Both the position numbers and the translations under genes were made by a program. A model generated the notes under the pieces. The model searched no databases and was not told the origin of the DNA. It saw nothing but the letters and a program-made list of their open reading frames with translations. Source: Altererythrobacter sp. B11 (GTDB taxonomy: Bacteria; Pseudomonadota; Alphaproteobacteria; Sphingomonadales; Sphingomonadaceae). Taken from it: 64,000 bases of DNA. The stretch covers positions 868,001 through 932,000 of the forward strand of contig NZ_AP018498.1 in the NCBI RefSeq assembly GCF_003569745.1, read 5' to 3'. Of the stretch, positions 5,954 through 34,223 are shown in pieces; the stretch's first letter is position 1, and each line of letters opens with the position of its first letter.

Positions 5954-5957
5954 TGGC

Positions 5958-7542: not shown

Positions 7543-7545
7543 CGG

Positions 7546-10756: not shown

Positions 10757-10762
10757 TCCGTC

Positions 10763-11098: not shown

Positions 11099-11099
11099 C

Positions 11100-12422: not shown

Positions 12423-12428
12423 CGGCAA

Positions 12429-13109
12429 ATGTTCAAACGCCCTTCGATCCGGTACGGCAAGACCCCGCAGGCAGAGACGCCATACCAGCGCGCGGCGCAG
12501 GTCTGGGATGACCGCATCGGTTCGGCGCGCGTCCAGGCGAAAAGCTGGCGCTTCGCGTTCTTCGGGGCACTTGGTCTCTCGGCCATCCTGACCGGCGGTC
12601 TCATGTGGCAGAATGCGCGCGGAACGATCGTCCCCTGGGTCGTCGAGGTCGACAAGCTGGGCGAAGCGCGCAGCGTTGCCCCCGCCGACGCCGGCTTTAC
12701 GCCCGGCGATACCCAGATCGCCTTCCATCTCGCGCGCTTCATCGAGAACGTCCGGTCCATTCCCGACGACGCGATCGTCGTGCGCGAGAACTGGCTGCGG
12801 GCCTACGACTTTGCGAGCGATCGCGGCGCGCTCGCGCTCAACGAGTATGCGCGCGCCAACGATCCGTTCGCTGTGGTCGGCCACGAACAGGTGGCGATCG
12901 AGGTCACCAGCGTGATCCGCGCTTCGCCGAAGAGTTTCCGCGTCGCCTGGGTCGAGCGGCGCTACCGCGACGGCGCGCTTGCCGAGACGAGCCGCTGGAC
13001 CGCGATCCTGGGGATCGCGGTCCAGCCACCGCGCGATCCAGATGCGCTGACGCGCAATCCGCTGGGAATTTTCGTCACCTCTATCAACTGGTCAAAGGAG
13101 CTCGGCTGA
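12429..13109 (+). CDS. trbF: conjugal transfer protein TrbF (VirB8-like)
   Basis: A 226-residue bitopic inner-membrane protein. A cytoplasmic N-terminus (YQRAAQVWDDRIGSARVQAKSWR) precedes one membrane helix at about residues 40-58 and a periplasmic VirB8 fold (ARFIENVRSIPDDAIVVRENWLRAYDF). It nucleates pore assembly. The stop overlaps the trbG ATG by one base (TGATG). Confidence 0.95.
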   Translation: MFKRPSIRYGKTPQAETPYQRAAQVWDDRIGSARVQAKSWRFAFFGALGLSAILTGGLMWQNARGTIVPWVVEVDKLGEARSVAPADAGFTPGDTQIAFHLARFIENVRSIPDDAIVVRENWLRAYDFASDRGALALNEYARANDPFAVVGHEQVAIEVTSVIRASPKSFRVAWVERRYRDGALAETSRWTAILGIAVQPPRDPDALTRNPLGIFVTSINWSKELG

Positions 13110-14107: not shown

Positions 14108-15276
14108 GCGAGGAGCCTCTCGACCGCCAACCGGACAATGCGGAGTCGATCGTGAGACTGCGCGGGGAAGGGCCGCGCGTGGTCCGGTTGTCGCGCAAGG
14201 CCATTGGCATCACCAGCGCCGCCGGTCTGGCCCTGGTCGGCGGCGCCTTGCTGTTCGCGCTCCGGCCGGCGTCGCACGAGCAGGGCGAGGAATTGGTGAA
14301 TACCGAAAGCACTGCTGTCGCGGACGGCCTCGCGTCGGCGCCCCGGGACTATACGCAGGTGCCCAGGCTCGGGCCGCCCTTGCCCGGCGACCTCGGCAAG
14401 CCGATTCTCGATGCGCAGGATCGCGGCGCTGTCGCCGCGCTTCCGCCCGTGGGCGCTCGGCCGGCTTCGCAATCGCCAGCGATCGCCGCGCGGGAGGCCG
14501 CGCGTCAGCGCATCGCGCAGGAGAGCGAAGCTGCGAGAGCCAGCCGCCTGTTCTTTGGCGGCGGGGCTCAGCCCGCCAGTCTCGTGCAAACGGATGTCGC
14601 TAGCGGGCTCGGGTCAGCCCCGGGTATCGGTGCTGACGCGCCACCGGCCGCGCGCGCATTCCTCGACCGGCCGGCCGAACGCAGGACGGCTTCGATGCAG
14701 CAACTTGAGGCGGCGCCGACTGCAGCCGTCCTGCAATCGGGTTCGATCATTCCCGCGGCGCTCATTACCGGGATCCGGTCCGACCAGCCCGGGCTGGTGA
14801 CCGCGCAGGTGACCCAGAACGTCTATGACAGCGTGACGGGACAACGCTTGCTGATCGGGCAGGGCGCGCGGTTGATCGGTGATTACCAGTCCGATGTCGG
14901 CTTTGGCCATCGCCGCGTGCTGCTGGCCTGGAACCGCCTGATCCTCCCCGATGGTCGTTCGATCGTGCTCGAGCGCCAGCCTGCCGCCGATCCCGCCGGA
15001 TATGCGGGGCTCGAAGACCGGGTGGATTACCACTGGGGCGGGGTGCTGAAAGCCGCGCTGGTCTCGACGATACTCGGCATCGGCGGCGAACTCGGGGCAG
15101 GTGGGGACAGCGAACTGGTCCGCGCGCTGCGCCGCGGCAGCCAGGACAGCATCGGCCGGGCTGGTGAGCAGGTCGTTTCCCGCGAGCTCGATGTTCGCCC
15201 GACGCTCACCATCCGGCCCGGCTACCCGGTGCGCGTGCTGGTTACGCGCGACATTGTGCTGGAGAGTGGGTCATGA
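14104..15276 (+). CDS. trbI: conjugal transfer protein TrbI (VirB10-like)
   Basis: A 390-residue envelope-spanning protein. A membrane helix at about residues 37-57 (AIGITSAAGLALVGGALLFAL) and a Pro/Ala-rich spacer precede the VirB10 beta-barrel domain (SIIPAALITGIRSDQPGLVTAQVTQNVYDS, LLIGQGARLIGDY, VLLAWNRLILPDGRSI). The C-terminus ends as usual (IRPGYPVRVLVTRDIVL). It closes the trb pore set and overlaps the next gene by four bases. Confidence 0.95.
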   Translation: MSEEPLDRQPDNAESIVRLRGEGPRVVRLSRKAIGITSAAGLALVGGALLFALRPASHEQGEELVNTESTAVADGLASAPRDYTQVPRLGPPLPGDLGKPILDAQDRGAVAALPPVGARPASQSPAIAAREAARQRIAQESEAARASRLFFGGGAQPASLVQTDVASGLGSAPGIGADAPPAARAFLDRPAERRTASMQQLEAAPTAAVLQSGSIIPAALITGIRSDQPGLVTAQVTQNVYDSVTGQRLLIGQGARLIGDYQSDVGFGHRRVLLAWNRLILPDGRSIVLERQPAADPAGYAGLEDRVDYHWGGVLKAALVSTILGIGGELGAGGDSELVRALRRGSQDSIGRAGEQVVSRELDVRPTLTIRPGYPVRVLVTRDIVLESGS

Positions 15277-15509: not shown

Positions 15510-15826
15510 AAGGTCCGCCAGCAATGAATTGCCTATCTCTCGATACTGCGCGTAAAGGTCTTACGAACAAGTTCTTTGCTTCGGCGGTGTTTCCGTCATA
15601 TATTTAGGCCGGGAACTCAAATTCCCTGCGACCGGGCATCGATACGCATGTCCAAGCCGCAAGCCAAAGGTATCGAGGTACTTGCCAACGAGTGCTTCCA
15701 TTGCCCGGTCGCACCCTTTGGGCCGGGTGCCGATTATAATTACATTATAAATTGGAATGATCGTCTTTGTCGAACCAGTCTTGGTTGGCGGCATTTGGAG
15801 TCGCGATTTTGACAAGGAGAAGATCA
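15510..15826 (+). other. intergenic leader before the lasso peptide operon
   Basis: These 317 bases separate the trb operon from the lasso precursor. They hold a GC-rich hairpin (GCACCC at about 15709 pairing with GGGTGC at about 15725) and an AT-rich palindrome at 15734-15750. A clear AAGGAGA ribosome-binding site lies at 15813-15819. No convincing gene was seen; an open frame from the ATG at 15649 has no ribosome-binding site or family signs. The promoter of the lasso operon is probably here. Confidence 0.6.
15734..15750. promoter_or_regulatory. AT-rich palindrome upstream of the lasso precursor
   Basis: TTATAAT and ATTATAA form exact 7-base arms around TAC. It lies 77 bases upstream of the precursor start in an otherwise GC-rich leader. 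It could be an operator, or its TATAAT could serve as a -10 box. No assigned binding protein. Confidence 0.45.
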
Positions 15827-15964
15827 ATGAAAGAACTGCAAGCAATCGAAGGGCCGGTGGTGGAACTCGGACAGGCGTCCGTCGAAACCAAGGGCAATGC
15901 AATCTTCGATGTCGATCTGAGCACCGGTCCCTCCCGTTACGCGATGGGAATGGCCGACGACTGA
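15827..15964 (+). CDS. lasso peptide precursor
   Basis: A 45-residue precursor. The start at 15827 has AAGGAGA eight bases upstream. The leader of 22 residues ends in ASVETK, with Thr at the penultimate position as required in lasso precursors. The core then starts with Gly. The predicted macrolactam ring is GNAIFDVD, closed between the Gly1 amine and the Asp8 side chain (8 residues). The tail is LSTGPSRYAMGMADD, so the core is 23 residues. Asp6 would give a ring too small for the class. Identification rests on this pattern plus adjacent B and C genes and an isopeptidase. Tail plugs may be Arg, Tyr or Met residues, which cannot be told from sequence. Confidence 0.9.
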   Translation: MKELQAIEGPVVELGQASVETKGNAIFDVDLSTGPSRYAMGMADD

Positions 15965-16011
15965 GCCGGTCGGGCGCGCGCGCCTGCGCGGTGCGCGCGC
16001 CACCCGCCGTC

Positions 16012-16632
16012 ATGGTGCCTCCGGACCCTGATCGCGACGCTTTGGCGTGGCGTGAGATCGATGGACAGCTGATCTTCCTCGACCTGGCCGCGGACCGGTA
16101 TTTTCGACTTGGCCGAGACCAGAACCATACATTTCTCGACATGGTCGCACGAAGCGGACGCGAGCGCTGGCGCCAGCCGCCGGATTTCCCGCGGCCTTTG
16201 AACTGGGCACCGCCGACCCGGACATCGCAGGCTATCGAGTTCGGCGCATTCAGCCTGTCCGAGATTGCCCACTCGCTCTGGACGCAGCGGCGTGTCGAAC
16301 GGCGAATTGCGACTTCGGGATTCCATTCCGTTCTCAGCGAGACCCGGCAGCTTCTTGCGCGCCGGGATCGCCCCCGCAGCGATTCTGCGATTGCGGACCG
16401 TATCGTCCGTTCCTTCGAACATGCCCGCATCTTGCGCACTGCCGCGAACCGGTGCCTGCCGCGATCCATTGCGCTGGCCGTTCGGCTCGCGGCCCGTGGC
16501 GCCCCTGTGAACGTCGTCATCGCCGTAAAGCTCGCGCCGTTTGCGGCCCATTGCTGGGCGCAGGCGGACGATGTGGTGCTCAACGACAGCGTCGAGGAGG
16601 TGCAGCGCTATACCCCGCTGCTGGTGCTGTGA
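16012..16632 (+). CDS. lasso peptide B protein (RRE plus leader peptidase fusion)
   Basis: The enzyme that binds and cuts off the leader. The N-terminal part (LAWREIDGQLIFLDLAADRYFRLG) is a PqqD-like leader-recognition domain (B1). The C-terminal part is the transglutaminase-like cysteine protease (B2), with Cys in RTAANRCLPRSIALA, His in PFAAHCWAQ and Asp in DVVLND. The two parts are fused, as usual in proteobacteria. An ATG start at 16012 is used; a GTG at 15991 is an equally possible start, and neither has a strong ribosome-binding site. The stop overlaps the C gene (GTGA). Confidence 0.9.
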   Translation: MVPPDPDRDALAWREIDGQLIFLDLAADRYFRLGRDQNHTFLDMVARSGRERWRQPPDFPRPLNWAPPTRTSQAIEFGAFSLSEIAHSLWTQRRVERRIATSGFHSVLSETRQLLARRDRPRSDSAIADRIVRSFEHARILRTAANRCLPRSIALAVRLAARGAPVNVVIAVKLAPFAAHCWAQADDVVLNDSVEEVQRYTPLLVL

Positions 16633-18365
16633 GCAGCCCTGGATTCGCACTGGCAGTTCCGCTCACCAACAGTGCGCTACTTTCCGCTCGCCCACGGCTG
16701 CATTCCGATCTCGGGACGCTTCGCGCAGATGAGCCGCGGGTTTGGCTTGGCGGCGGCATGCCAGTGATCGACATGGGCTCCCGGGGGATCGTGATCGGTA
16801 CGCTTTTTTCCCGTCCCGACGGGGCGGCCTGCCGTTCGATCGTGTCCGACCGGGAAGTGGACGAAGACGCACAGAGCATGGCTCGTCGTCTGCTCGATCG
16901 GTGTTGGGGTGCCTACATCGCTGTATTGACTGACCCTGACGAGCGCGGGACCTCCGTTCTCGTCGATCCTTCTGGACTGCTGCCGGTGTATTCGGTCACC
17001 ACCGAGAACCACGTGGTGATATCCTCTAACGTTCGGGTGCTCGAACGATGCACGCATGTGCACCTGCGGGTCGACTGGAAGGACGTCCATGCGTTTCTTT
17101 GCCGACCCGAGCTGCGCTCGCGCGCCACCTGTCTGAAAGGCGTGCGAGAGGTACCGCCCGGCAGCCTGACCACCATCTTCGGACGCTCGATATCGGAAAA
17201 GCTCCTCTGGCGACCCGATGCCTTCATGCCTGTCGCCCCCCATCCCTCGTTCGGCGATGCGGCCAACCAGCTGCGCGAGACGGCGATTGCCGTGATAGGC
17301 GCCTGGGAAAGATCGCTGGGGCCAGTCACCGTGGCCGCATCGGGGGGCGTCGATTCCTCGTTCATCTGTGGCGCACTCCATTGTGGCGGTGCGGCGTTTT
17401 CATGCGTCACGGCCGCCACCGCCGATCCCAGCGGCGACGAGCGACCAGCCGTCCGGCGTCTGGCCGAACACCTCGATGTCCCTCTCGCGGAAGGCATCTA
17501 CGACCCTGCGCTGTTCGACCCTCTCGAAAGTGCCTCGGGCGCCTTGCCTCGCCCTTCGCGCAAGTCCTTTCTCAACGGCGTCGATCGGTTGTTCGCCAAG
17601 GCTGCCGATGATCTCGGCGCGGTTACGATCATGGACGGCAACGGCGGTGACAATCTGTTCTGCTATCTACACTCGGCAGCACCGATTGACGATCGACTGC
17701 GAGCCGAATTCACACTTTCGGGCTGGGCCTCGACTTTCCTCGACAGCTGTCGCGTAACCGGCTGCGATGTTCCCGAAATGGCGACAGCGATCTGGCGCAG
17801 GATGACGAGGCCCGCTGGTTTCCCGCCATGGCCTGCTGACGAGCGTCTGCTGTCACGTCCCGCGCCGGACTTCGAAAGTGCCGAACCGGTAGCGCCCTGG
17901 ACCAGGGTTCCCGTCGGGCCGCACGGCGGCAAGCATGATCACCTGGCGCTGATCATGCGATGCCAGAACCATCTTCACGGACTGATATCGCCAATGTCTC
18001 GCTTTTCGCCCTTGATGAGCCAGCCGCTCATGGAACTGTGCCTCGCTATTCCGACCTGGTTATGGTGCGAGGGCGGATTGAATCGCTCTGTGGCGCGGCG
18101 CGCTTTTGCGGACGCATTGCCACCCTCGATCCTCACGCGCACAGCCAAGGCCGGCCCCGATAGCTATATCCGCGCGATTTTCGATCGGAACCGGCAGGCT
18201 GTCAGGCACTCCCTGATGGACGGCCTTCTCGCACGCCAGGGCCTGCTCGACCTGCCGGCCGTCGAACAGGCCCTGGGGATCGACGCTTACACCGGAGATT
18301 CGATTATCTACCGGTTGCTCGACCTTGCCGAAGCCGAACACTGGGCTCGGGCGTGGCAGGATTAG
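16629..18365 (+). CDS. lasso cyclase (asparagine synthetase-like C protein)
   Basis: A 578-residue homologue of class B asparagine synthetase that adenylates the ring Asp side chain and closes the macrolactam. The C-terminal synthetase domain has the ATP pyrophosphatase loop AASGGVDSSFICGAL at about residues 235-250 and the later segment TIMDGNGGDNLF. The N-terminal glutaminase-like domain lacks the catalytic Cys2, as expected for lasso cyclases. A GTG start at 16629 overlaps the B stop. The 3' end overlaps the isopeptidase gene on the other strand by four bases. Confidence 0.92.
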   Translation: MSSPGFALAVPLTNSALLSARPRLHSDLGTLRADEPRVWLGGGMPVIDMGSRGIVIGTLFSRPDGAACRSIVSDREVDEDAQSMARRLLDRCWGAYIAVLTDPDERGTSVLVDPSGLLPVYSVTTENHVVISSNVRVLERCTHVHLRVDWKDVHAFLCRPELRSRATCLKGVREVPPGSLTTIFGRSISEKLLWRPDAFMPVAPHPSFGDAANQLRETAIAVIGAWERSLGPVTVAASGGVDSSFICGALHCGGAAFSCVTAATADPSGDERPAVRRLAEHLDVPLAEGIYDPALFDPLESASGALPRPSRKSFLNGVDRLFAKAADDLGAVTIMDGNGGDNLFCYLHSAAPIDDRLRAEFTLSGWASTFLDSCRVTGCDVPEMATAIWRRMTRPAGFPPWPADERLLSRPAPDFESAEPVAPWTRVPVGPHGGKHDHLALIMRCQNHLHGLISPMSRFSPLMSQPLMELCLAIPTWLWCEGGLNRSVARRAFADALPPSILTRTAKAGPDSYIRAIFDRNRQAVRHSLMDGLLARQGLLDLPAVEQALGIDAYTGDSIIYRLLDLAEAEHWARAWQD

Positions 18366-20488
18366 GACCCGGGCGAGCAGGTCAACTCGGCCCGTGTTGG
18401 AGCGCCTTCCATCGTCAGCCACCGGTCGTATTGCCGGTCGCGCTCGGAGACACAGTTTCTGCGCTTCATGAGCCAGAACTCGAGCCATTCGGTGGTCCGT
18501 TCGTAGACCGCATTGCGATGGGCAGGCTGCCATTTGTAGTGCGTCTCATCCTCGAACACGTGAAGCTCGATCGGCTTGCCCTTGTGGCGGTAGACCTCGA
18601 CCACATCGAGGCCGCCCTCATATTCGCTGTCGGCATTCTGGATGAGGATCGGGACATCGACGCGGCCCACGTTGAGGATCAGCGACATCGGGCGCCAGAA
18701 TTCCTCCGCGCCGTCCTCGAGGAACCGGTAGCCGATGCTCCGGGTGAATGCACTGTAGGCGGGCCCGGCGGACAGCACGTAGCTGTACATGTCCTCGCAG
18801 CACGATCCGAGGCTGGCGACCTTGTATCGAGGCGAATTGATCAAGGCGAACTGGGCCGACGAGACCCCATCGCTCCAGCCGGTGAGGCCTATGCGACTGG
18901 CATCGACAGTGCCGGTCCCGATCGCGTGATCGAGCGCGATATCGAGCGAGGACTGGACATTGCGCCGGTCGAGCCAGTCGACCCTGTTGGCGCTCAGCAG
19001 TTCGGTCGCGGTTTGCGCTTGTGCGACAGCGGGGACGAGGTCGGGCTTGGCGAAACTCAGAACGGCAAAACCGCGAGCAGCCAGTGGCTGTACGGGGACT
19101 TCGTCCCCCGAGCCTCCGCGCAGGAACCCGTGGCTGATATATTGGACGACGACCAGCGGATGGCGTTGACCCGGCTGATGATCGGGAGGCAGCACGAGAT
19201 CGGCATAGCTTTCCACACCATAGGCATTGCTGAACCGGAAACGCTGGACCGAACCAAGGTCGAGCGAAGAAACCAGAGGATTGGGATCGTGAATCAGTCG
19301 CGCCTCGCCATTGTCGAGGCCGATCCCCACCAGCCGTCGCGGCATTGTTGCGCCTTCGCGCGCGCAGATGATCTCGTCTGCGGCCAGGGCGCATCCGATC
19401 AGCATGTCGTCGCTGACCATCAGGCGGCGCGGTACACTGGCACCGATATCCCAGCGCAGGATTCCCATGCTGCTCTGCCCCCAGCCTGTCTTCTGGACGG
19501 CGAAGAGCGCGCGTTCGGAAGGCGACCACCACATCCGCATGATGCCTTCGCACAGCTTTGCAGGGCAGCTGATCCGGGTGTCCGTCGGATCGGACAGAAC
19601 CAGCCGCGTCGGAGAGATATAGCGGTCGGGAAACTTGGGCTCGAGCCACGCGGCCCATCCTTCGGGACCGGCGACGTAGCCACGCGCCCGCTCGGGGAGA
19701 CCTTGCGGTCCTTCCGGAGACAGCACGGCTATCTCTTCTGGCGTGGAGCTTCGGGATTCCCCTGTCGCGAGATCGATGGTGGTGTATTCCGTCGCGATTG
19801 CTTCCCGCGGGATCGGGCGGGACGTGAATTGCGGCGAAATGCTCTCGTCGTAGAGGAAGCCCCGGCGCGCCTGCTGCGCGATTCCCAGCGCCGCCCGTCT
19901 TATTCCGGGCCTCGTGGCGACGACGAGCGCTTCGCCGCCGCCGAGCCAGGCGAACGCATCGACATCGTCGGGGAGGGTGGTGACTTGCCGCGCGTCCGTT
20001 CCTCCCGCGCTGTCCGCCAGCCAGACCTGGTTCGACCCTTCGATCCGTTTGAGATAGGCGATCGATTGTCCGTCTGGCGACCAGCGCGGCGTGTTGACCT
20101 TGGCCCAGCCCGCGGTGACCGACGGAAATTCGCGCAGCCGAAAATCGTCACGGAGATATTCACCGCCCCGATCGAGCTCCCGCGGTGCCTGGCTCCTGTC
20201 GAGCGGCATGACCACCAGCCGCTGGCAATAGCCGTTGGTCTCGGCATTGCCGCGCCGCACGGCGAATGCAATCTGCTTCATATCTGGCGAGAGACCGAAG
20301 GCGCTTGGCGTTTCGTTGGGATCCGCTCGCCCGATATCGGCAAGTTGCACCAGGTCTTCCGCCGTCATGCCGCGCTTGCCTCGAAGCCCCGGGCTGCTTT
20401 CGAAAGCCTCGCAGGGGTCGGCAAGCGACCGGGGCGGCTCGGCGACGGGAATGATCGAGAAGGACAGGGCAGCAGCCAGGAAACCCAT
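18362..20488 (-). CDS. lasso peptide isopeptidase (S9-like)
   Basis: A prolyl-oligopeptidase-type serine hydrolase of 708 residues that opens the isopeptide bond of the lasso ring. An N-terminal signal peptide implies export to the periplasm. A beta-propeller follows (for example WSPDGQSIAYLKRIEGSNQVWLADS), then the alpha/beta hydrolase domain with nucleophile motif GLTGWSDGVSS near residue 530 and a late His (HYKWQPAHRNAV). Position beside a lasso cluster and the Cys-rich propeller segments fit the AtxE family. The start overlaps the TonB receptor stop (TGATG), so receptor and isopeptidase are co-translated, suggesting uptake and linearisation of the peptide. A GTG three bases earlier is an alternative start. 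Confidence 0.9.
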   Translation of the reverse strand: MGFLAAALSFSIIPVAEPPRSLADPCEAFESSPGLRGKRGMTAEDLVQLADIGRADPNETPSAFGLSPDMKQIAFAVRRGNAETNGYCQRLVVMPLDRSQAPRELDRGGEYLRDDFRLREFPSVTAGWAKVNTPRWSPDGQSIAYLKRIEGSNQVWLADSAGGTDARQVTTLPDDVDAFAWLGGGEALVVATRPGIRRAALGIAQQARRGFLYDESISPQFTSRPIPREAIATEYTTIDLATGESRSSTPEEIAVLSPEGPQGLPERARGYVAGPEGWAAWLEPKFPDRYISPTRLVLSDPTDTRISCPAKLCEGIMRMWWSPSERALFAVQKTGWGQSSMGILRWDIGASVPRRLMVSDDMLIGCALAADEIICAREGATMPRRLVGIGLDNGEARLIHDPNPLVSSLDLGSVQRFRFSNAYGVESYADLVLPPDHQPGQRHPLVVVQYISHGFLRGGSGDEVPVQPLAARGFAVLSFAKPDLVPAVAQAQTATELLSANRVDWLDRRNVQSSLDIALDHAIGTGTVDASRIGLTGWSDGVSSAQFALINSPRYKVASLGSCCEDMYSYVLSAGPAYSAFTRSIGYRFLEDGAEEFWRPMSLILNVGRVDVPILIQNADSEYEGGLDVVEVYRHKGKPIELHVFEDETHYKWQPAHRNAVYERTTEWLEFWLMKRRNCVSERDRQYDRWLTMEGAPTRAELTCSPGS

Positions 20489-22836
20489 CACCAGTGCCTC
20501 CTGATACCGAAGGCGATGAAGCGGCCGATTGGCGAATAATTGGTCGAATCATACGGTGTGTCGTTCGGCCCGGTAATGGCGATGACCTCGGGCTCGTCAT
20601 CGAAGACGTTCTGGATGGTAAGCGAAACCTCCAGGCCCGGATCCCTGTCCGCGCCTTCGATAATCTCGTAACTGAATCCGAGATCGAGAGTTGCGCTCGG
20701 TGCAATCCGGCTTTCTTCGGCAAATCGTCGATCTCTCAAGGCTCCGGTGTAGTTGAGCGCGGCATTCGCCTTGAACGCGCCCGTTTCGTAGCGGGCGGTC
20801 CCCCGGGCGCGGATGCGAGGAGGATTGAACACTGTTCCCGAAAGCTGCACCTTGGGGAGCGCGGCGGTCAGCTGCTGGTCGCTGTCGAGCCAGCTGCCGG
20901 CGAGCTCGAGCGACATGGAATCGTCGCCGCGCAGCCTGCGGGTCCAGGAGATGCGCGCATCGATGCCTTCGATCTGCTGGACCGCTACGTTGATGTTACG
21001 ATTGTCGACCAGGGCGACCACATTGGCCGCATCGTAGGGCGAGCCGGAAAAGTTCTGCAGGCCCAGCTGGGCTCCGGAGATGAGTCCTGCCAGCAGATCG
21101 GCCTGCGGCGAGAAATCGATCAAGCTCGCGAAACCCGGATCGCGGAAGGCAGCGGCAATCGATCCGGCAATCGGCTGCACGACCCTGTCGCTGTAGCGAA
21201 TATCGTACCATGTTGCCGAAACGAGCAGGCCGGGGACGCCGGCAGGCTCAAGCTCGACCCCGGCGGTCCAGCTGCGCGCACGCTCGGACTGGATATCCGG
21301 ATTGCCGCCGCTGGTGAACAGGACGGTGTCCGGACCGGAACCCGCGCCAAACGCGGCAGCAGGGAGCAGGAATGCCTGATAGGGCGTAAACTGCTGAAAC
21401 AGTGTCGGGGCCTTGAAGGATCGCGACCAGCTTCCCCGGAACGTCAGGCCGGCGACCGGGGAATAAATCGCACCGAGGCGCGGCGTGGCAAGCTGGTCGA
21501 GGTCCGGGTAGTCCTCGTAGCGCATCGCGGCCGAGAGACTGAGCCGTTCGATGCCGGCAATGCCGTTTCTACCCGAAACGACAGGCAGGTAGAGTTCGCC
21601 ATAAGCGAACCGGCTGCGCCGGGTGATATCGAAAGCTACCGAGGGACTGGCATTGATCTCTCGCGAGAAATCGAGACGATTGTTGCGAAACCCCGCACCG
21701 ACCGCGAGCCTGGCGGCCCCGCCGGGAAGCGTGAACAACGGACCCTCGGCACCGATCTCTCCGGACGCGATGGCGTTGCAGAAACAGCCTGTCGTGACCG
21801 TTTCCGCGCCATTTTGCGTGGAATTTGTCTGGAAATGCGTTCGATCGCGCCCGAGCACGCCAAGCGCCGTCGCCATCCAACCCGAGCCGAGCTCGATCTC
21901 GAGCGAAGGGGCGAAAGTGATCGATTCGACATCCGGCTCGGACACGAACCGCGCCGCCGGCGTGCCGCTGACGATTCTTGAGCTGCGCGTGGAATAGAGC
22001 GCATCGAGGCGTGCGGTCACACCGGATGCGACCATCTCGTGCCCGGAAAAGACTGCCGCGTGGCGACGCTGCGAAGGATACAGCGAGGTCTCGGGATCGA
22101 GCGATGCCGCATAGGAGCGCTGGCGCGCCGCGATCCTGGAGTTGTTGGAAAAGTCGTAGGCGAGCAGGAAACCGCCACTGCTCCAGCGCGTGCCTCCGAC
22201 GATGTCCGCCTGCTGGCGGAAGTAGCCCCCATCCGTGCTCGCTCCAATCTGCCCTGACGTGGTGACGCCTTCGAAGTCTCGCCGCAGAACGACATTGACG
22301 ACCCCTCCCACGGCGTCCGAGCCATAGATAGCCGATGCGCCGTCCGGTACGATTTCGATCCGGTCCACCGCAGGCAGGGGTATGGCGGAGATATCGACAC
22401 CCTGGAGCGCCGAATCGTATGGCAGGCGGTGACCATTGAGGAGGGTCAGCGTGGCGTCGGGGCCAAGGCCCCGCAAATTGGCGCTCGACGCCGAGTTGAC
22501 ATTGCTGTTCGCATTGCCCGCACCGAAGCCGATCCCCGGGTTTTGACCCCCGGAGAAATTCTGCGGCAGCGAGCGGATCGCTTCCCCGAGATCGACTTGC
22601 CCTGCTTCCACGATGGCCTCTCCATCAAGCGAAATGACCTCGCCGACCACCCGCGCGCCGCGAATGCGGGTACCCGTGACGACTATGGTGTTTCCTTCAT
22701 TCTCGCCCTGCGAGGCTTCCGTGTCGTCGGGTGCGGGGCCGGGCTGTTCGCCCGCCTGTGCACGAAGCGGTGTGGCAAATACGACGAGAGCCGTGCCCGC
22801 GAGGAGGGCTGGCAGCCCCCTTGATTTCAGCATCAT
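20488..22836 (-). CDS. TonB-dependent receptor of the lasso cluster
   Basis: An outer-membrane beta-barrel of 782 residues, probably taking up the lasso peptide or a related siderophore-like molecule. A signal peptide (LPALLAGTALVVFATPLRAQA) and an acidic linker precede the TonB-box-like NTIVVTGTRIRG. The plug follows (SLDGEAIVEAGQVDLGEAIRSLPQNF, IEIVPDGASAIYGSDAVGGVVNVVLRRDF), then the barrel. The protein ends in Trp, with a C-terminal segment FGIRRHW. No N-terminal STN signalling domain is present, so it cannot pass a signal to an anti-sigma factor in the Fec manner. The start at 22836 gives the signal peptide; the frame extends upstream without one. Confidence 0.92.
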   Translation of the reverse strand: MMLKSRGLPALLAGTALVVFATPLRAQAGEQPGPAPDDTEASQGENEGNTIVVTGTRIRGARVVGEVISLDGEAIVEAGQVDLGEAIRSLPQNFSGGQNPGIGFGAGNANSNVNSASSANLRGLGPDATLTLLNGHRLPYDSALQGVDISAIPLPAVDRIEIVPDGASAIYGSDAVGGVVNVVLRRDFEGVTTSGQIGASTDGGYFRQQADIVGGTRWSSGGFLLAYDFSNNSRIAARQRSYAASLDPETSLYPSQRRHAAVFSGHEMVASGVTARLDALYSTRSSRIVSGTPAARFVSEPDVESITFAPSLEIELGSGWMATALGVLGRDRTHFQTNSTQNGAETVTTGCFCNAIASGEIGAEGPLFTLPGGAARLAVGAGFRNNRLDFSREINASPSVAFDITRRSRFAYGELYLPVVSGRNGIAGIERLSLSAAMRYEDYPDLDQLATPRLGAIYSPVAGLTFRGSWSRSFKAPTLFQQFTPYQAFLLPAAAFGAGSGPDTVLFTSGGNPDIQSERARSWTAGVELEPAGVPGLLVSATWYDIRYSDRVVQPIAGSIAAAFRDPGFASLIDFSPQADLLAGLISGAQLGLQNFSGSPYDAANVVALVDNRNINVAVQQIEGIDARISWTRRLRGDDSMSLELAGSWLDSDQQLTAALPKVQLSGTVFNPPRIRARGTARYETGAFKANAALNYTGALRDRRFAEESRIAPSATLDLGFSYEIIEGADRDPGLEVSLTIQNVFDDEPEVIAITGPNDTPYDSTNYSPIGRFIAFGIRRHW

Positions 22837-22946
22837 CCTGATCTCCCTGTTCAATCGCGACATGCCGTTCTGGCTTCGCCGTTGCAGGGGTTGACGCATG
22901 GATGGGCTCGCACCCTAGTTGCATATGAAATTAAATTGAGCGGGAC

Positions 22947-23531
22947 TCAGACGTCCTCGGCGGCCAGCTCGCGCCGCAGGTGAGCGAGAGCTCTCGTCAT
23001 GTGGTATTCGACCGTCGACAACCCGACACCGAGTTCGAGATGAATTTCCCTGTAGGATTTCTTCTCGAAGCGGCTCATCGCGAACACCCGTGCGGTCTTC
23101 GCCGGGAGTTCGGCCAATGCTTCCTCGAGAAGCTGTTTGGTCTCCGCCGCGTGTAACCGGTCTTCCTGGCAAGGTAGACTGGTGCCATCGCCATTTTCGG
23201 TGAGCGACAGGGTCACGATCCGGCACCGACTCCTCCGGGCGAAGTCGATTGCCAGGTTTCTCGCGATACAATGCAGGAAACCGCCCGGATTGCGCAGTTC
23301 ATTCAGTTGCGCGCTCCCAGCGGCACGCAGGAAGACCTCCTGCGCAAGATCGCTGGCGTGCTCGTGACCGACCTTGCGCTTCAGGTAAGCCAGCACTCCG
23401 GCACGCTCATCCCGGTAGAGAGCTTCGAGCAGGCGGCTGCGCGGAAGCGATGCCCGTGTGGTTTGCGGTGACGAGGGCGAGGAAAGCGATTGTGTAGCGT
23501 GGTGCCGGGATCCGGCAGCGAAATCGGTCAT
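22947..23531 (-). CDS. ECF RNA polymerase sigma factor (FecI-like)
   Basis: A 194-residue sigma-70 factor of the extracytoplasmic group. Region 2 is at about residues 40-110 (LYRDERAGVLAYLKRKVGHEHASDLAQEVFLRA, ARNLAIDFARR) and region 4 at about 130-185 (LEEALAELPAKTARVFAMSRFEKKSYREIHLELGVGLSTVEYHMTRALAHLRREL). It lies upstream of the receptor and isopeptidase genes on the same strand and probably drives them. A FecR anti-sigma gene, usual next to FecI, is absent, and the receptor has no STN domain. Confidence 0.9.
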   Translation of the reverse strand: MTDFAAGSRHHATQSLSSPSSPQTTRASLPRSRLLEALYRDERAGVLAYLKRKVGHEHASDLAQEVFLRAAGSAQLNELRNPGGFLHCIARNLAIDFARRSRCRIVTLSLTENGDGTSLPCQEDRLHAAETKQLLEEALAELPAKTARVFAMSRFEKKSYREIHLELGVGLSTVEYHMTRALAHLRRELAAEDV

Positions 23532-23923
23532 GCTCAGCGGGAGCAGGCGACCGCACTCGTCGGCTCGTCAGCATGAGCCGGATGCGGAGTCCAGGTCTTT
23601 GCCGCCGTTCGGGACGCCGCGACGTCCCTTGACCGGATCGGCCGCCGGGCCTTGGCCGGACCGGCGTGCATGATGTCTGGCGGAACTGTCCACGCGTCCG
23701 TTGCCAGCAATTCGGTGCGCGCCAACCAATCGTGCCCAAACGCGATTGATCATGCAAGGCGCTACTACTCCATACCGGAGGTGTCCGCAGGCAAGCTCTG
23801 CGCGTCCGACCTTCTTCGAAACGTCGTGCCCGCATCACCATTTCTGGGGAGGCGGCTGCCCGGATAGGAGAATGCCGGGCGCAAAACCGTTGCGGTAGCA
23901 GGACCATCGAAAGGAGGGGCTCC
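23532..23923. other. gene-free stretch between the sigma factor and the DUF2285 locus
   Basis: These 392 bases hold only short open frames on both strands without family signs or good ribosome-binding sites. They must carry the promoter of the sigma-factor operon (leftward). At the right end is the strong AAAGGAGGGG ribosome-binding site of the next gene (23910-23919). Confidence 0.5.
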
Positions 23924-24746
23924 ATGGTCCGCATCCCCGAATGGCAAAGGCGCTTCGACGGTTTCGATTTTTCGGACTTCGCGCAGGAATTCCTGCGGCG
24001 CAATCCGGACTATCGTGCCCAGTTCGCCCGCTTCCGCCGTGCGGGTGACGGCAAAACGCAAGCTCTCGCCAGCCGGCGAAGCGCGCGTTCATGGGGCCTC
24101 GAATTTCCTCGTGGATCCCGCATCGGGAGCCGATGTCTGTCCGGCATTATGGCGCCCCGAAGACAATCCGAGCGTCGTTGTGGTCGCATCTTCAGCCATG
24201 TGTCGGAAGGAGCTTGCGTCCGCGTTTCACATGCGATCGCTGCTGGTTGAAGCGGAAGCCGGCGCAGATCGGCACCTGGTGCTGGCGGGAAAACACGCGC
24301 GCCACCGTCTCGTGGTGACGCCGCCGGCCGCTCGCAATGGCTATATCGTCCCGCCCGATCACTTGATGTCCGTCCGACTGGCGGCGCTCAGCGCGTTTCA
24401 TGAGCATCCGCGCAGTCGGCAGGCCATTGCAGCTCGCGCTGCGCTGACACCCTCACCCTATCTCAGACATCGGCTGGTTCTCCTGCTCGCAATTCTCGAC
24501 AGGCTCGACCCAGCATCAGGTGAACCCGCAACGGTTCGGCAGATCGCGCGCGATCTGACCTTTCCCGGTCAGGATTACGATCGCGCGATTGAATGGAAGT
24601 CATCTTCCAACCGGCGCCAGACCCAGCGTCTTGTCGCAGAAGCGCGCCGCATGACAACGACCGGCTATCGTGATCTCCTGAGCGGCTCCACGCGGCTGTC
24701 CTCGCCCACTGAGCGCTGCGACGGAAGCGATGAGGGCCGCGATTAG
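23924..24746 (+). pseudogene. DUF6499/DUF2285 protein, split by a +1 frameshift
   Basis: Alphaproteobacterial ICEs commonly encode a protein with an N-terminal DUF6499 segment and a C-terminal DUF2285 DNA-binding-like domain. Here the first frame gives MVRIPEWQRRFDGFDFSDFAQEFLRRNPDYRAQFARF and continues to SWGLEF. The expected continuation, LVDPASGADVCPALWRPEDNP, lies in the next frame from 24108. One extra base around 24104-24108 (in TTTCC) separates them. The rest, to AARAALTPSPYLRHRLVLLLAILDRLDP and a basic C-terminus, is intact to 24746. It may be a broken gene, a sequencing error or a shifted reading. Function in the family is not established; regulation of the element has been proposed. 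Confidence 0.75.
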
Positions 24747-24988: not shown

Positions 24989-25741
24989 ATGTATGCCTAC
25001 TTCGCAGAGGAGTTCGCTACTGAACTCATAAATGTACAATCGGACACCGAACTGAGTGGGGCTCTTGCCGAGGTATCGCGGCGCCTCGGTTTCGACCATT
25101 TTGCCCTTAGTCTCGAGTTGCGCTCGGGATCGCGCGAAGCGCCGGGCTTGCTTCTGCACGATTATCCCGATGAGTGGGCAAAGGTCTATGTGGCGTTTGA
25201 TCTGGCGGGCCAGGATCCCGTCCGGCGCGCTTGCGACAAGAGTTTTATCGGCTTTGCATGGGATATGCTGGAGGAGATGATTCCGCTTACCCGCGGGGAC
25301 CGGCAGATGCTCGCCGTCGGGAAGGAATGCGGAATCGGCGACGGCTATACAGTGCCACGACACCTGCCCGGGCTCGCGCGCGGAACGTGCACCTTTGCCG
25401 TGTGTCCGGACAGGGATCTGCCCCGTTGTCGCCTGGCCCTTGCCGAGATCGTCGGCACGCTCGCGCTCAGTTGCGCCCTTGCCCTTGGTCCCTCTCGTAG
25501 CACGGAAACCGTTCCCGTGCTTAGCGATCGCCAGCGCGAGTGTCTGTTGTGGACCGCGCGCGGCAAGACCGCCGCCGAGACCGCGATCATACTGGGTATC
25601 GGCACCGAAACCGTCATCCAGCATCTCAAAATGGCCCGCGAACGCTATCAGGTTCATTGCAAGCAGTCGCTCGTGGTCGCAGCTCTTTTCGATGGGCTGA
25701 TCGGATTTGCCGACATTATCCGGTGGCGAGACACGGGCTGA
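24989..25741 (+). CDS. luxR: LuxR-family quorum-sensing regulator
   Basis: A 250-residue regulator with an N-terminal autoinducer-binding domain (about residues 10-160, including GFDHFALSLEL, the DEWAKVYVAFDLAGQDPVRRAC segment and GIGDGYTVPRHLPG) and a C-terminal LuxR helix-turn-helix (LSDRQRECLLWTARGKTAAETAIILGIGTETVIQHLKMARERY). It would bind the acyl-homoserine lactone made by the neighbouring LuxI. The start at 24989 is chosen because the conserved domain begins there; no good ribosome-binding site is visible. The 240 bases before it hold no gene and no lux-box-like repeat was seen there. Confidence 0.92.
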   Translation: MYAYFAEEFATELINVQSDTELSGALAEVSRRLGFDHFALSLELRSGSREAPGLLLHDYPDEWAKVYVAFDLAGQDPVRRACDKSFIGFAWDMLEEMIPLTRGDRQMLAVGKECGIGDGYTVPRHLPGLARGTCTFAVCPDRDLPRCRLALAEIVGTLALSCALALGPSRSTETVPVLSDRQRECLLWTARGKTAAETAIILGIGTETVIQHLKMARERYQVHCKQSLVVAALFDGLIGFADIIRWRDTG

Positions 25742-25830
25742 ATTCCGCCCATGCAGTTGGGACGCTTCGCAATTCCGCGGAAGCTTACATCCCCTGTTCT
25801 TGGTATGTCGAAGCGGAACCAGATCGATCA

Positions 25831-25865: not shown

Positions 25866-26477
25866 ATGCAGAACCATACCAGTCCCGCCGATCCGGTGCT
25901 CCGGACCATGTTCGCGGCCCGTAAGCGGGTCTTCGTCGATCTCCTCAAATGGGATGTCCCCGTGCTCGAAGGAGTCTACGAAATCGACCAGTTCGATACG
26001 AGCGAAGCGTCCTATGTCATTCTCACCGATGACAAGGACAGTCACCGCGCATCTGCGCGGCTGCTCAAGACCGACAGGGCGCATATTCTCGGCGAGCTGT
26101 TTCCGTCTCTTTGCGATGGCCCCGTCCCGGTGCGCGAGGACTTTCGCGAGATCACCCGCTTCTGCATCGAGCCGACACTCCCGCGTCTGGAACGCCGGGC
26201 CGCGCGGGACGAACTTGTAACCGCGCTCGCGGATCACGCGCTGATCGCCGGGATAGGCGCGTATACCGCGGTCGCTACGCCGAACTGGTTCCGCCAGATT
26301 GCGAAATTTGGCTGGCGATGCCGTGCGCTCGGACCCGGCAGCCGGATCGGCGATGAAAACCTCATCGCGCTCCAGATCGATATCGATGCGGGCACGTCTG
26401 CGGATCTCGCCTGCGGTGGTGTCTACCGCCAGGCATCCTATCGCGTGGTCGACTACGAGCTGGAGATCGCGGCATGA
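25866..26477 (+). CDS. luxI: acyl-homoserine-lactone synthase (LuxI family)
   Basis: A 203-residue autoinducer synthase that joins an acyl chain to S-adenosylmethionine to give an acyl-homoserine lactone. Conserved parts are FAARKRVFVDLLKWDVP (Arg, Phe, Trp), YEIDQFD (Asp), ASARLLKTD (Arg) and FREITRFCIEP (Glu, Arg). The start at 25866 is placed directly after an inverted repeat. The stop overlaps the next gene in ATGA form, so synthase and oxygenase are made together. Confidence 0.94.
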   Translation: MQNHTSPADPVLRTMFAARKRVFVDLLKWDVPVLEGVYEIDQFDTSEASYVILTDDKDSHRASARLLKTDRAHILGELFPSLCDGPVPVREDFREITRFCIEPTLPRLERRAARDELVTALADHALIAGIGAYTAVATPNWFRQIAKFGWRCRALGPGSRIGDENLIALQIDIDAGTSADLACGGVYRQASYRVVDYELEIAA

Positions 26478-27340
26478 CTGGGGCAGCGCATTCGCCCTGG
26501 CTCGACCAGATCAGAAAGCAGGGTTATTGCATCATCCCCAACGCTCTGCCGAGTGCAATCCTCGCAGCGCTCGATACGGACCTCCAGCAGACCTACGCAA
26601 AGACGCCTTTCGGTGATGGCGAGTTCTATGGCTACAAGACGAAGCGGTTTGGGAGTTTGCTGCGCCGCTCGCGCTGGGCGGGAGACCTGGTCCTTCAACC
26701 ACTCATCCTCGCGCTTGCCCGTGAAATTCTGGGCAAAGCCTGCGAACGCATCCAGCTAAATGTCGCGCAGGCGATTGCAGTCCATCCCGGCGAGATCGAG
26801 CAGTTCCCGCATTGCGACCACGACATGTGGGCAGGGGAGAAGGGCACGCATGAATATCTGCTCAATGTCATGTGGCCCCTGACCGAATTTACGGCGTCCA
26901 ACGGCGCGACGCGAATATATCCCGGCACCCACAGGCAGAAAATTGAATCGCTAGACCAGCTCGGCACGCCAATCGCGGCCGAGTGTCAGCCTGGCGATGC
27001 CATTTGCTTTCTCGGATCGACGGTGCACGGAGCGGGACCTAATCTGACCAGGCACGTGCGCCGTGCGGTGGTGATCGGTTACAGTCTTGGCTGGCTCAAG
27101 CCCTACGAGAATCTTTGGCTCGCCTATCCGCCAGAAGTCGCGCGGGAATTTCCCGCAGAACTTGCCGAGCTTGCGGGCTATTGTCAGCACCGGCCCAATC
27201 TTGGCAATTACGAAGGCCAGTGCCCATCTATCTTGCTGCGCGACGATATTGCCGAGTTTCCGCGGGCGACCGATGCGCTTCGCGACGACCAGAAAGCCGC
27301 GGTGCGCGAATTTGCCGAGGCGCAGCGCGGCGAAAAGTGA
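26474..27340 (+). CDS. phytanoyl-CoA dioxygenase-family oxygenase next to luxI
   Basis: A 288-residue Fe(II)/2-oxoglutarate oxygenase of the PhyH family. The metal motif HxD is in IEQFPHCDHDMW (about residues 110-121). A later His and 2-oxoglutarate-binding Arg are probably in STVHGAGPNLTRHVRRAV. The family hydroxylates acyl-CoAs and many small molecules. Overlap of four bases with both luxI and the gntR gene suggests a role in making or altering the signal molecule, for example hydroxylating its acyl chain. PhyH-like genes next to luxI have been noted in sphingomonads; the substrate is unknown to me. Confidence 0.88.
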   Translation: MTGAAHSPWLDQIRKQGYCIIPNALPSAILAALDTDLQQTYAKTPFGDGEFYGYKTKRFGSLLRRSRWAGDLVLQPLILALAREILGKACERIQLNVAQAIAVHPGEIEQFPHCDHDMWAGEKGTHEYLLNVMWPLTEFTASNGATRIYPGTHRQKIESLDQLGTPIAAECQPGDAICFLGSTVHGAGPNLTRHVRRAVVIGYSLGWLKPYENLWLAYPPEVAREFPAELAELAGYCQHRPNLGNYEGQCPSILLRDDIAEFPRATDALRDDQKAAVREFAEAQRGEK

Positions 27341-27930
27341 GCCCTGCCCACGTCCTTGAGCCCACCTATCAACGCCTCAAGCGTGCGCTGATGGAGGGAA
27401 CCTGGGCCAATGGGGCCAAGCTCGAGGCAATGCGGCTTGCCGACGATTTCGGCGTCAGCATGACACCGGTGAGGGACAGCCTGAACCAGCTGGTTGGCGA
27501 GGGGCTGGTCGACCTCACCCCTGGCGACGGCTTTCGGGTGCCGGTCCTGACCGAACAGGGTTTGCGGGATGTCCTCCGCGTAAATGCGGTTTTGCTTGAA
27601 ACAGCGAGCGATGAAGCTTGGCGAATCCCGAACGTGCGCGATCTCGACGACTGGCCTGACGATTATGCTGGCCGCATGGCAGCGGTGTTTTTGGTACTTG
27701 CAACCGGGTCGGGCAACCGGTGCCTGGCGGTCCTGATCGATCGGATCAGTGATCGGCTGCACCGGGTTCGGATCCATGAACCCGACGTATTGCCCGACGC
27801 TGCAGAAATCCTCGCTGAAATCGAGGCGAGTCTGCGAGGCTCGCGTAACGAACGGCTGCGCGCCTTGCGGCGTTACCATCGCAGATGCGAGGAGCGGGTT
27901 CCGCAATTGGTCAGTCGCCTGTCGGGATAG
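27337..27930 (+). CDS. GntR-family transcriptional regulator
   Basis: A 197-residue regulator. The N-terminal winged helix-turn-helix (TYQRLKRALMEGTWANGAKLEAMRLADDFGVSMTPVRDSLNQLVGEGLVDLTPGDGFRVP) is typical GntR. The C-terminal half is helical, as in the FCD ligand domain, but lacks an obvious set of metal-binding His residues. The GTG start overlaps the oxygenase stop (GTGA), making it the third gene of the luxI operon. It may sense the product of LuxI and the oxygenase, or repress the element; target unknown. Confidence 0.85.
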   Translation: MSPAHVLEPTYQRLKRALMEGTWANGAKLEAMRLADDFGVSMTPVRDSLNQLVGEGLVDLTPGDGFRVPVLTEQGLRDVLRVNAVLLETASDEAWRIPNVRDLDDWPDDYAGRMAAVFLVLATGSGNRCLAVLIDRISDRLHRVRIHEPDVLPDAAEILAEIEASLRGSRNERLRALRRYHRRCEERVPQLVSRLSG

Positions 27931-32662: not shown

Positions 32663-32889
32663 TGCAGACTGTTTCGACGATCACGTGCCCCCATTGCCAA
32701 GCGGCCACCACCGAAACCATGCCGACCAACGCATGCTGGTTCTTTTATGAATGCCAGCATTGCCGGAAAAGACTGCAGCCATTGGCAGGAGACTGTTGTG
32801 TATTCTGCTCTTATGGCGATGCCCCATGCCCCCCGATTCAGGATGCGCGGGAAGATGGTGACGGTGCTACCTGCTGTCTACCGCAGTAG
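32662..32889 (+). CDS. GDCCVxC-domain small Cys-rich protein
   Basis: A 75-residue protein with 12 Cys. CPHCQAATTETMPTNACWFFYECQHC looks like a zinc ribbon. It is followed by GDCCVFCSYGDAPCPPIQ, the signature of the GDCCVxC family, some members of which are selenoproteins. Such genes are common in mercury operons, and a role in metal binding is likely but not shown. The 3' end overlaps the integrase gene on the other strand by 23 bases. Confidence 0.88.
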   Translation: MQTVSTITCPHCQAATTETMPTNACWFFYECQHCRKRLQPLAGDCCVFCSYGDAPCPPIQDAREDGDGATCCLPQ

Positions 32890-34096
32890 TGGTGGTTGCA
32901 TCACGCAAGACACACACGAGATGTTTGTTCCAGGCATTAAGGGCATTGCGTTTTTCGTCTTTCCAATCGTGGCGCTGGTAAACTCCCGCCACGCCCGCAC
33001 GTGAACCGCTTACATGGTTCAATACCGCCTCGGTAACCTCGAACCTTACACCTAAGCGCTGGAAATTCGTTGCGAGCGTCCGCCGCAAGTCATGAAGGCG
33101 CCAGGGAGGCAAAGGTTCGCCTTCGGCTTCCTCGATGGCGCTATCCAGCTTCATCTTGCCTTTATGGTAGCCGGTGAAGCCCGCTCCACTTGCAGTCGCA
33201 AACACTCTGCCCTTGCGCGGCCATTTCCCTCCACCTGCCAACCGATCGAGCTCGATCATGGCGAGTTCGTTCAATGGAATGGTGTTGAACTCTCTGTTTT
33301 TCGTGCGCCGGCCGGGCAGGGTCCATAGTCTTTCTGCTCTGTCGAGCTCCTGCCAGTGCATCCCGCAAACCTCTTCGCGGCGCTGTCCGGTCAAAATCAA
33401 TAAGCGGACAATCGGCCCGAAACAGGGATGGCATTCGGGCGTGGCATGCCAGATCATGCGCAGCTCCTTGTCAGAAAGCCAGCGATCCCGCGGCCTTACC
33501 GGCGGCGGCGTCTCCATGCCCTCCATCGGACTGCGATCGAGATCGCCGCGACTGATAGCCCAGCGGAACAGACGGCGCATCACTGCAAATACGTTCCGGC
33601 GATTGGCGACCTGCTCTTCCGGCATCTGGTCGAGAACGGATACGATATCTGCCCTGGTGATCGAAGGCAGCGGCTTCTTGCGTAGAACCGGCTCAAGATG
33701 AAGCCTGACCACTCGTTCGACCAGACGTCTCCATCCCTCGCCTTGGCAGGAATGGGTGAAATGCCGCGCGTAATTGTCGAAGGCGAGATCGACGGCCTCA
33801 CGGCGCCTCTGCTTTTCAGCCTCCACTGGATCGACGCCTTGGCCGACGAGCAGGAGAAGGCGTTCGGCTTCCGAGCGGGCGGTCGTAGGTGTCCACGGAG
33901 ACCCATGTGCGCCGATCGTATAACGCCGTGCGATTGTCTCGCGCCCGCCCATCCTGAATTGAAGGACGTAAGAGATATTTCCTGAAGGCGTAATCTTGGC
34001 GCCAAAACCTTTGAGATCAGTGTCCCAAACGAATTGGCTCGAGCTGCTAGCCTCGAGCGCATCTATCGATTTTTTCGTGATTTTTCCTGTTGCCAT
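32867..34096 (-). CDS. int: tyrosine-type integrase (P4-like, DUF4102)
   Basis: A 409-residue site-specific recombinase. The N-terminal DUF4102 arm-binding domain (KITKKSIDALEASSSSQFVWDTDLKGFGAKITPSG) is followed by the SAM-like core-binding domain and the catalytic domain. The catalytic residues are in TGQRREEV (Arg), HDLRRTLAT (His, Arg) and HVSGSRAGVAGVYQRH (His, Tyr). It is the last accessory gene before trmB, reading inward, as for ICE integrases placed at the attachment site. No excisionase gene was recognised. Confidence 0.93.
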   Translation of the reverse strand: MATGKITKKSIDALEASSSSQFVWDTDLKGFGAKITPSGNISYVLQFRMGGRETIARRYTIGAHGSPWTPTTARSEAERLLLLVGQGVDPVEAEKQRRREAVDLAFDNYARHFTHSCQGEGWRRLVERVVRLHLEPVLRKKPLPSITRADIVSVLDQMPEEQVANRRNVFAVMRRLFRWAISRGDLDRSPMEGMETPPPVRPRDRWLSDKELRMIWHATPECHPCFGPIVRLLILTGQRREEVCGMHWQELDRAERLWTLPGRRTKNREFNTIPLNELAMIELDRLAGGGKWPRKGRVFATASGAGFTGYHKGKMKLDSAIEEAEGEPLPPWRLHDLRRTLATNFQRLGVRFEVTEAVLNHVSGSRAGVAGVYQRHDWKDEKRNALNAWNKHLVCVLRDATTTTAVDSR

Positions 34097-34223
34097 CCGG
34101 AACCTCGTGTCCTTCTTCTGGCAATCACCGGGTAATCACGCAAGCGGAAAAAGGAGCGAAATGGAGGCAATTCTAGCGTAGGAGGATTCAGCTAAGTACA
34201 TTGTTTTACAAGGATTTCGCACT

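Follow-up and report, generated by a model that had tools for sequence, protein, structure and literature searches.

A LuxI-linked oxygenase gene in the putative quorum-sensing switch of an integrative conjugative element of Altererythrobacter sp. B11

Results

The stretch of DNA analysed here (the window; 64,000 nucleotides, positions 868,001 to 932,000 of contig NZ_AP018498.1) belongs to the genome of Altererythrobacter sp. B11, which is a single contig of 3.84 Mb. Four genes lie together on its plus strand: luxR (24989-25741), encoding a regulator that binds acyl-homoserine lactones (AHLs; PF03472, Autoind_bind, 8.3e-28; PF00196, GerE, 6e-8), luxI (25866-26477), encoding an AHL synthase (PF00765, Autoind_synth, 2.8e-20), phyH (26474-27340), encoding an Fe(II)/2-oxoglutarate (2OG) oxygenase (PF05721, 1e-25), and gntR (27337-27930; PF00392, 1.1e-16). 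The adjacent AHL synthase and AHL-binding regulator domains, assigned by Pfam, are those of a LuxI/LuxR quorum-sensing pair. As the first-pass annotation had reported, luxR stands just upstream of luxI and both following junctions are four-base overlaps: direct reading of the open reading frames (ORFs) and DNA gave ATGA (26474-26477) between luxI and phyH, and GTGA (27337-27340) between phyH and gntR. Across 121 loci, the window included, luxI lies upstream of phyH on the same strand in 119, with a possible 4-nt overlap in 100 of these; gntR lies downstream of phyH in 92, a share inflated because 80 of the 121 loci were chosen for likeness to the window PhyH, with a possible 4-nt overlap in 80 of the 92. 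Because the order and the overlaps recur across these loci, the luxI-phyH-gntR arrangement is not due to chance.

The operon had also been placed on a conjugative element, and the gene content bears this out. Trb-type conjugation genes (trbB, C, E, K, L, F, G and I, recognised by Pfam) occupy 5904-15276 on the plus strand, and genes for a relaxase (DUF3363) and a coupling protein lie just left of the window (G000:C1:861975-867039 of the source genome). A tyrosine integrase gene (32867-34096, minus strand; PF00589, 6.3e-13) marks the right end. Between it and trmB is one copy (34116-34139) of an exact 24-bp direct repeat, TTCTGGCAATCACCGGGTAATCAC, the other copy of which (G000:C1:787118-787141) is 115 kb away. 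Because of these repeats, the integrase, the relaxase, the coupling protein and the Trb genes of a type IV secretion system, luxR-luxI-phyH-gntR is, judged by anatomy, carried by a 115-kb integrative conjugative element (ICE) with the 24-bp repeats as its borders. An S26 peptidase gene and an HTH_17 excisionase-like gene, the latter adjoining a replication initiator gene, are also inside the element. To the right of gntR follow sulfur-transport-like genes (DUF6691, Sulf_transp), ArsR and MerR genes and a pyridine-nucleotide-disulfide oxidoreductase gene, then the integrase. A left match near 834 kb was discarded as a border, the true left end, with the repeat, being at 787 kb. The sibling genome G008 resembles this one as far as 786943, beyond which the two differ by about 5.5 kb before trmB, and an empty site is not cleanly visible in it. 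Further left in the window, a BsuBI/PstI-type restriction enzyme gene and an adenine methylase-like gene (2781-5719) lie beside the Trb genes, preceded by a HEPN-domain gene (8-568) and by IS4/5-type and rve-type transposase genes (669-2750).

A split gene of the fseA type immediately precedes luxR. Its first ORF (23924-24250, plus strand), identified by reading the frame, encodes an AWEFLRRN-like DUF6499 motif (AQEFLRRN ... SWGLEF) that recurs, as does the frame offset, in relatives; the second ORF (24015-24746, plus strand), offset by +1, encodes a DUF2285 domain (PF10074, 2.6e-20; 73.4 bits against a cut-off of 26.4). The first frame closes 53 codons past the WGL site, and the +1 frame is open for 213 codons from a TTT. 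These are the sequence features of FseA, the AHL-controlled activator of ICEMlSymR7A excision, for which excerpts of PMC10359603 describe a split layout with a +1 frame offset. The window shares with 21 other loci, several of them near-copies, a TTT-pyrimidine five codons into the SWGLEF stretch and a +1 frame open for 193-217 codons from the TTT. A DUF2285 match was present in 36 rows (window included), 26 of which have the DUF6499 motif in the offset frame; the motif was absent from that frame in 10, which for the most part are weak matches, L018 and L026 being exceptions. Such a DUF2285/DUF6499-like gene follows phyH by 32-263 bp on the same strand in five loci, and lies upstream on the other strand in six. 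Elsewhere on the chromosome (G000:C1:461843-470730), a second DUF2285 gene lies near a second coupling protein gene, perhaps in another conjugative element.

Two lux-box-like sites were found on the plus strand. The palindrome ATCCCCTGTTCTTGGTAT (25789-25806), 60 bp before luxI, scored 28.5 with a position weight matrix made from 54 different luxI sites, and a second site (23834-23851), before the split fseA and between it and a divergent ECF sigma factor gene (22947-23531, minus strand; PF08281, PF04542), scored 19.0; the best score among 10 Markov sequences of window length was 16.0. An 18-bp palindrome about 60 bp before luxI is conserved among relatives. When genes were scored over 400 bp upstream, the motif reached at least 15.5 before 94 and at least 12 before 98 of 121 luxI genes, counts that are partly circular because the matrix was built from luxI sites. 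It reached at least 12 before 20 of the 22 DUF2285 genes scored, which were those with at least 180 bits and enough upstream DNA; of the 14 DUF2285 kinds scored once sequences had been thinned at 80% identity, 12 reached 12 and 8 reached 15.5. Sites of at least 12 also preceded 13 of 63 ECF genes, where the 10 that reach at least 15.5 all fall within the region shared with fseA, and 2 of 118 luxR genes. At the same threshold and distance, none preceded any of 124 phyH, 92 gntR, 30 lasB, 50 lasC, 80 TonB, 46 isopeptidase, 46 FecR or 25 integrase genes; gntR itself follows phyH in the operon. This distribution is consistent with predicted LuxR-AHL control that would drive luxI-phyH-gntR and fseA together; counting against such a switch, 14 of the 125 motif sites of at least 15.5 precede none of the scored genes. 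Another lux-box motif, RCCTGT-N10-ACAGGY, had matched with 0 mismatches at 25837, just before luxI. It was dropped in favour of the conserved ATCCC...GGKAT site: with up to 2 mismatches allowed it matched the window 11 times, where chance gives 5 on average, and just 2 scanned upstream regions had perfect arms.

In 149 genomes of the family we found 61 LuxI places (PF00765), 46 with phyH alongside and 15 without. A profile scan found no PhyH in the 15 phyH-negative loci (L151-L165), some of which are on short contigs, and the PhyH list, thresholded at E 1e-30, is incomplete. A coupling protein is encoded within 60 kb of 28 of the 46 LuxI with phyH versus none of the 15 without (p 1.5e-5), and DUF2285 within 6 kb of 20 of the 46 versus none of the 15 (p 0.001), p-values that are rough because the loci are related. 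Conversely, DUF2285 is missing from the 6 kb around 26 of the 46 luxI-phyH loci, and a coupling protein from the 60 kb around 18, both counts of presence being lowered by several short contigs; coupling-protein matches below about 72 bits and DUF2285 matches below the cut-off were left out, and the distance limits (1.5, 6, 25 and 60 kb) were our own choice. By these family counts, and those for gntR below, phyH goes with luxI, luxI-phyH with conjugation, and gntR with lasso-peptide genes.

In a LuxI tree of 73 of the 165 rows, 53 of the 58 phyH-linked rows fall in one clade (99/88), and the phyH label needs 4 changes versus 13.9 in shuffles. In a PhyH tree of 63 selected rows, the bootstrap of which was not fully settled, 30 of the 31 luxI-linked rows, counting L130 (luxR only) and L201 (cut luxI), form one clade (100/99), which includes the window PhyH, and the 32 rows without luxI lie outside it. 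Members of this clade include rows from plasmids of Methylocystis and Variovorax and from a single chromosome that belongs to another family (G400), the source of the best PhyH match outside the family (435 bits, the next being 240) in a class search that scored up to six candidates per genome. The exception among the luxI-linked rows, L174, has a long branch of its own and could be independent. A luxR-luxI-phyH trio with a long PhyH branch, perhaps independent, was noted in another alphaproteobacterial family (L174 / L217). By eye, no conjugation genes were recognised within 17.5-19 kb around the G400 and L174 pairs. Among more distant PhyH, 27 of 29 class-level loci (L172-L200) have no luxI within about 1.5 kb.

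The surroundings of the luxI-phyH clade vary (lasso, virB, fseA, other). Plasmid Lpl of PP1Y (L204) reads traG-luxR-luxI-phyH-gntR-lasso-trbI, with the lasso cluster adjoining trbI; plasmid p2 of ES2-1 has a luxI-phyH locus with gntR and lasso genes, plasmid pRSMS1 of RSMS reads luxR-luxR-luxI-phyH-virB, and the Variovorax plasmid luxR-luxI-phyH-DUF2285. On the Methylocystis plasmid, an IS21 element interrupts luxI, behind which phyH is retained. In L130, phyH stands directly behind luxR with no luxI between them; a lasso cluster is nearby, and the genome encodes two other LuxI. This arrangement is compatible with PhyH acting on a signal of other origin, or having no part in signalling, and speaks against a function confined to producing its own signal. 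A lux-box-like palindrome was seen by eye between luxR and phyH of this locus (L130:17730-19400). Two loci appear damaged: L136 is a decaying copy, in which phyH, TonB receptor, isopeptidase and lasso C each matched as several separate pieces, and in L143 phyH is interrupted, its two pieces far apart, with an IS3 transposase annotated at the matching plasmid hit (H16).

A predicted lasso-peptide cluster (15827-23531) lies inside the ICE, between trbI and fseA. It comprises a precursor A gene (15827-15964, plus strand; read from its frame and leader motif, with a putative start codon and cleavage point between leader ...GQASVETK, Thr at -2, and core GNAIFDVD...), an ORF with protease B (15757-16632, plus strand; PF13471, 4.5e-20; profile match from 15982, true start probably near 15980), cyclase C of the asparagine synthase family (16452-18365, plus strand; PF00733, 6.3e-21), an isopeptidase-like S9 peptidase (18362-20491, minus strand; PF00326), relatives of which are annotated as Atxe2 family lasso peptide isopeptidase, a TonB-dependent receptor (20488-22899, minus strand; PF00593, PF07715) and the ECF sigma factor gene. 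A second lasso B-like gene (G000:C1:2477528-2477863; PF13471) lies far from any LuxI found.

The presence of lasso genes correlates with gntR rather than with phyH as such. Of the 46 luxI-phyH loci, 18 have gntR and 28 do not, and a lasso cluster is present in 16 of the former versus 1 of the latter (p 2.5e-9); in L111-L113, L117, L118, L120, L133, L137, L141 and L150, lasso B and C come after gntR and share its strand. The modelled GntR (pLDDT 95.0) has a FadR-like fold resembling the FCD regulators PmiR, McbR and TM0439 (Foldseek), and its FCD domain, at 14.5 bits against a Pfam cut-off of 24.3, falls short of assignment to the FadR subfamily. From these gene associations, we think that GntR probably acts locally, as a regulator of the lasso genes. 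The first-pass annotation had tentatively cast it as a second reader of the signal, an idea that finds no support in the 28 phyH loci without gntR and in the link of gntR to lasso genes. It had also proposed surveying gene order and joint loss, with an unconserved order as refutation. No such refutation resulted: relatives keep luxI-phyH, gntR is conserved only in part, and loss of gntR does not go along with loss of phyH.

The PhyH protein has the marks of an Fe(II)/2OG oxygenase (PF05721), with an HxD...H triad, a 2OG arginine and a matching fold (model pLDDT 95.5). The HxD motif remarked on at first reading is H113 and D115; neither these two residues nor H185 and Arg196/Arg197 vary in an alignment (A1) of 78 relatives (78 of 94 thinned PhyH, 5 distant and 11 other sequences being left out), and we take them to be the iron and 2OG ligands of the PhyH family. 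A second alignment (A2) comprised 55 of 69 rows. Between the window and L005, phyH is under purifying selection (dN 0.086, dS 0.94). The best profile and fold matches are the fungal oxygenases AndA, PrhA, SptF and AsqJ, plus DhiD (PDB), at 20-27% identity among the structure matches listed. In profile comparison AndA matched at E 2.4e-30, whereas human PhyH matched weakly (E 0.0011), so that human-type phytanoyl-CoA chemistry is not the favoured reading: among solved structures, natural-product oxygenases are closer than human phytanoyl-CoA hydroxylase. The ligands named in the AndA, PrhA, SptF, AsqJ and DhiD entries are of meroterpenoid or alkaloid type, not AHLs, and no AHL-degrading enzyme is among the best 50 structure matches. 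Two other leads on PhyH were abandoned. A published Leptospirillum PhyH is the ectoine enzyme EctD, without a link to luxI; and mirror-tree distances (Pearson r 0.70-0.83; 55 of 87 loci after thinning), tried as a test of PhyH action on the LuxI product, are uninformative on the PhyH substrate, because correlation is seen for every one of the six pairings among the four proteins.

The AHLs of relatives bear on what PhyH might do. Cloned alone, luxI of N. subterraneum (in A. tumefaciens) and luxI of Rr2-17 (in E. coli) jointly gave hydroxy-AHLs matching 3-OH standards from C8 to C14. N. subterraneum, which has three novI-phyH loci, shows six AHL spots, corroborated according to the authors by LC-MS/MS of cloned luxI genes; hence no identified AHL requires phyH. 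Since luxI alone gives 3-OH-AHLs, the linked PhyH is not needed for the 3-hydroxyl (the hosts' own PhyH left aside), which weakens both 3-OH-AHL as the PhyH product and the earlier example of a hydroxylated chain. Rr2-17 overexpressing novI made two TraR-active signals, "potentially uncharacterised" according to the authors. In the cited sphingomonad luxI-phyH papers we found no mass-spectrometry comparison of signals with and without phyH.

Discussion

We consider it very probable that luxR-luxI-phyH-gntR is the quorum trigger of the ICE. LuxI would make an AHL, and LuxR-AHL would bind the two lux-box-like sites, raising luxI-phyH-gntR in positive feedback together with the split fseA; FseA, which would be made via +1 ribosome slippage, would in turn activate excision and transfer, on the model of ICEMlSymR7A. 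PhyH may be a dedicated third component, translation-coupled to LuxI and most likely oxidising the AHL or its acyl precursor, which would make the signal private to these elements, and GntR would serve the lasso cluster. This whole explanation, PhyH tailoring included, we hold tentatively and rate as slightly short of probable.

Two described systems come close. According to the parts of PMC10359603 used here, the TraR-FseA-RdfS system of ICEMlSymR7A shares with the window an AHL regulator, a split DUF6499/DUF2285 activator with a +1 offset and an ICE; in the window, by contrast, luxI is followed by phyH and gntR, and the only candidate counterpart of RdfS is the HTH_17 gene. In the Mesorhizobium R1-I1-crotonase "three-component" circuit (PMC10470506, in excerpt), a third enzyme gene beside luxI is likewise presumed to be co-transcribed. 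That gene, however, is of the crotonase family and its role in signalling was shown by mutation, whereas in the window a 2OG oxygenase, known from sequence alone, takes its place, and the comparison is one of working principle only.

That the oxygenase acts on the signal, as first proposed, is made plausible by association, luxI being the usual partner of phyH (46 of 61 LuxI places; 30 of 31 rows in the clade). The luxI-phyH pairs found without lasso genes count for action on the signal, and the extra TraR-active signals of Rr2-17 for tailoring of it; L130 and the 15 LuxI without phyH count against tailoring. The same ICE switch would also work if PhyH destroyed or blunted the AHL, as an off-switch shortening the transfer burst or as a block on foreign AHLs. 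Such turnover would suit the shared operon and overlap with luxI, and also L130, where phyH is kept behind luxR in a genome with two other LuxI; we nevertheless regard it as unlikely, for no AHL-degrading enzyme is among the best 50 structure matches, and Rr2-17 accumulates much 3-OH-C8-HSL (PMC11674143, in excerpt), with the reservation that phyH beside its novI is only likely, four of five novI pairs having phyH in the part of PMC3704786 used here.

PhyH might instead be a quorum-regulated output that acts on a lipid, a fatty acid or a small metabolite rather than on the signal; the overlap would then do no more than set its dose. The solved relatives act on many kinds of small molecules, distant PhyH without luxI nearby are common, L130 has phyH without luxI, and Hao et al. 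2010, as represented in citing papers, proposed only quorum regulation of phyH. We think this reading rather unlikely, because the luxI-linked clade keeps luxI despite its differing surroundings. Hydroxylation of the neighbouring lasso peptide appears highly improbable: in the window the cluster lies at a distance of 10 kb, and 17 of 46 luxI-phyH loci have lasso B within 25 kb, versus 0 of 15 LuxI without phyH, but 29 of the 46 lack it within that distance; of the 78 lasso B places, no more than 18 are accompanied by phyH at up to 25 kb (60 are not), and lasso genes are tracked by gntR. Within the preferred explanation, tailoring of the signal by PhyH, the more specific idea that the luxI-linked clade is an AHL-specific 2OG oxygenase making a new oxidised AHL (for example hydroxylated off C3, or on the lactone), as a private mating signal for sphingomonad conjugative elements, is possible but on balance doubtful.

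The luxR-luxI-phyH order in sphingomonads, once with gntR, is already in print. In the portions of PMC3704786, PMC4288048 and PMC5012321 used here, the novR-novI-phyH loci of Sphingomonadaceae have the gene order of the window, and at novI_Nsub3 of N. subterraneum a GntR gene is reported directly downstream of phyH, as in the window; in the literature as excerpted, attention was drawn to phyH next to luxI in 2013 or earlier, and PMC5012321 calls for work on the PhyH reaction. The term "lasso peptide" occurs 0 times in these three papers, and FseA and DUF2285 0 times in PMC3704786 and PMC4288048. Among the matches listed, judged by titles, abstracts and term counts with thin coverage of subscription journals, no publication joins luxI-phyH with lasso clusters or FseA. 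As far as our searches reached, the 115-kb ICE with its 24-bp repeats, the FseA-type gene with the shared lux-box-like palindrome, and the ties of the phyH clade to luxI and of gntR to lasso genes are new.

Placing phyH in the putative trigger of an ICE gives the question of its substrate a readout, excision and transfer, and a list of targets, the luxI and fseA promoters. As the gntR-linked lasso cluster shows, a peptide natural product is a further cargo of many such elements. Should PhyH act on the AHL, this would represent new signal chemistry and would help to explain how signals are kept separate among elements in one community.
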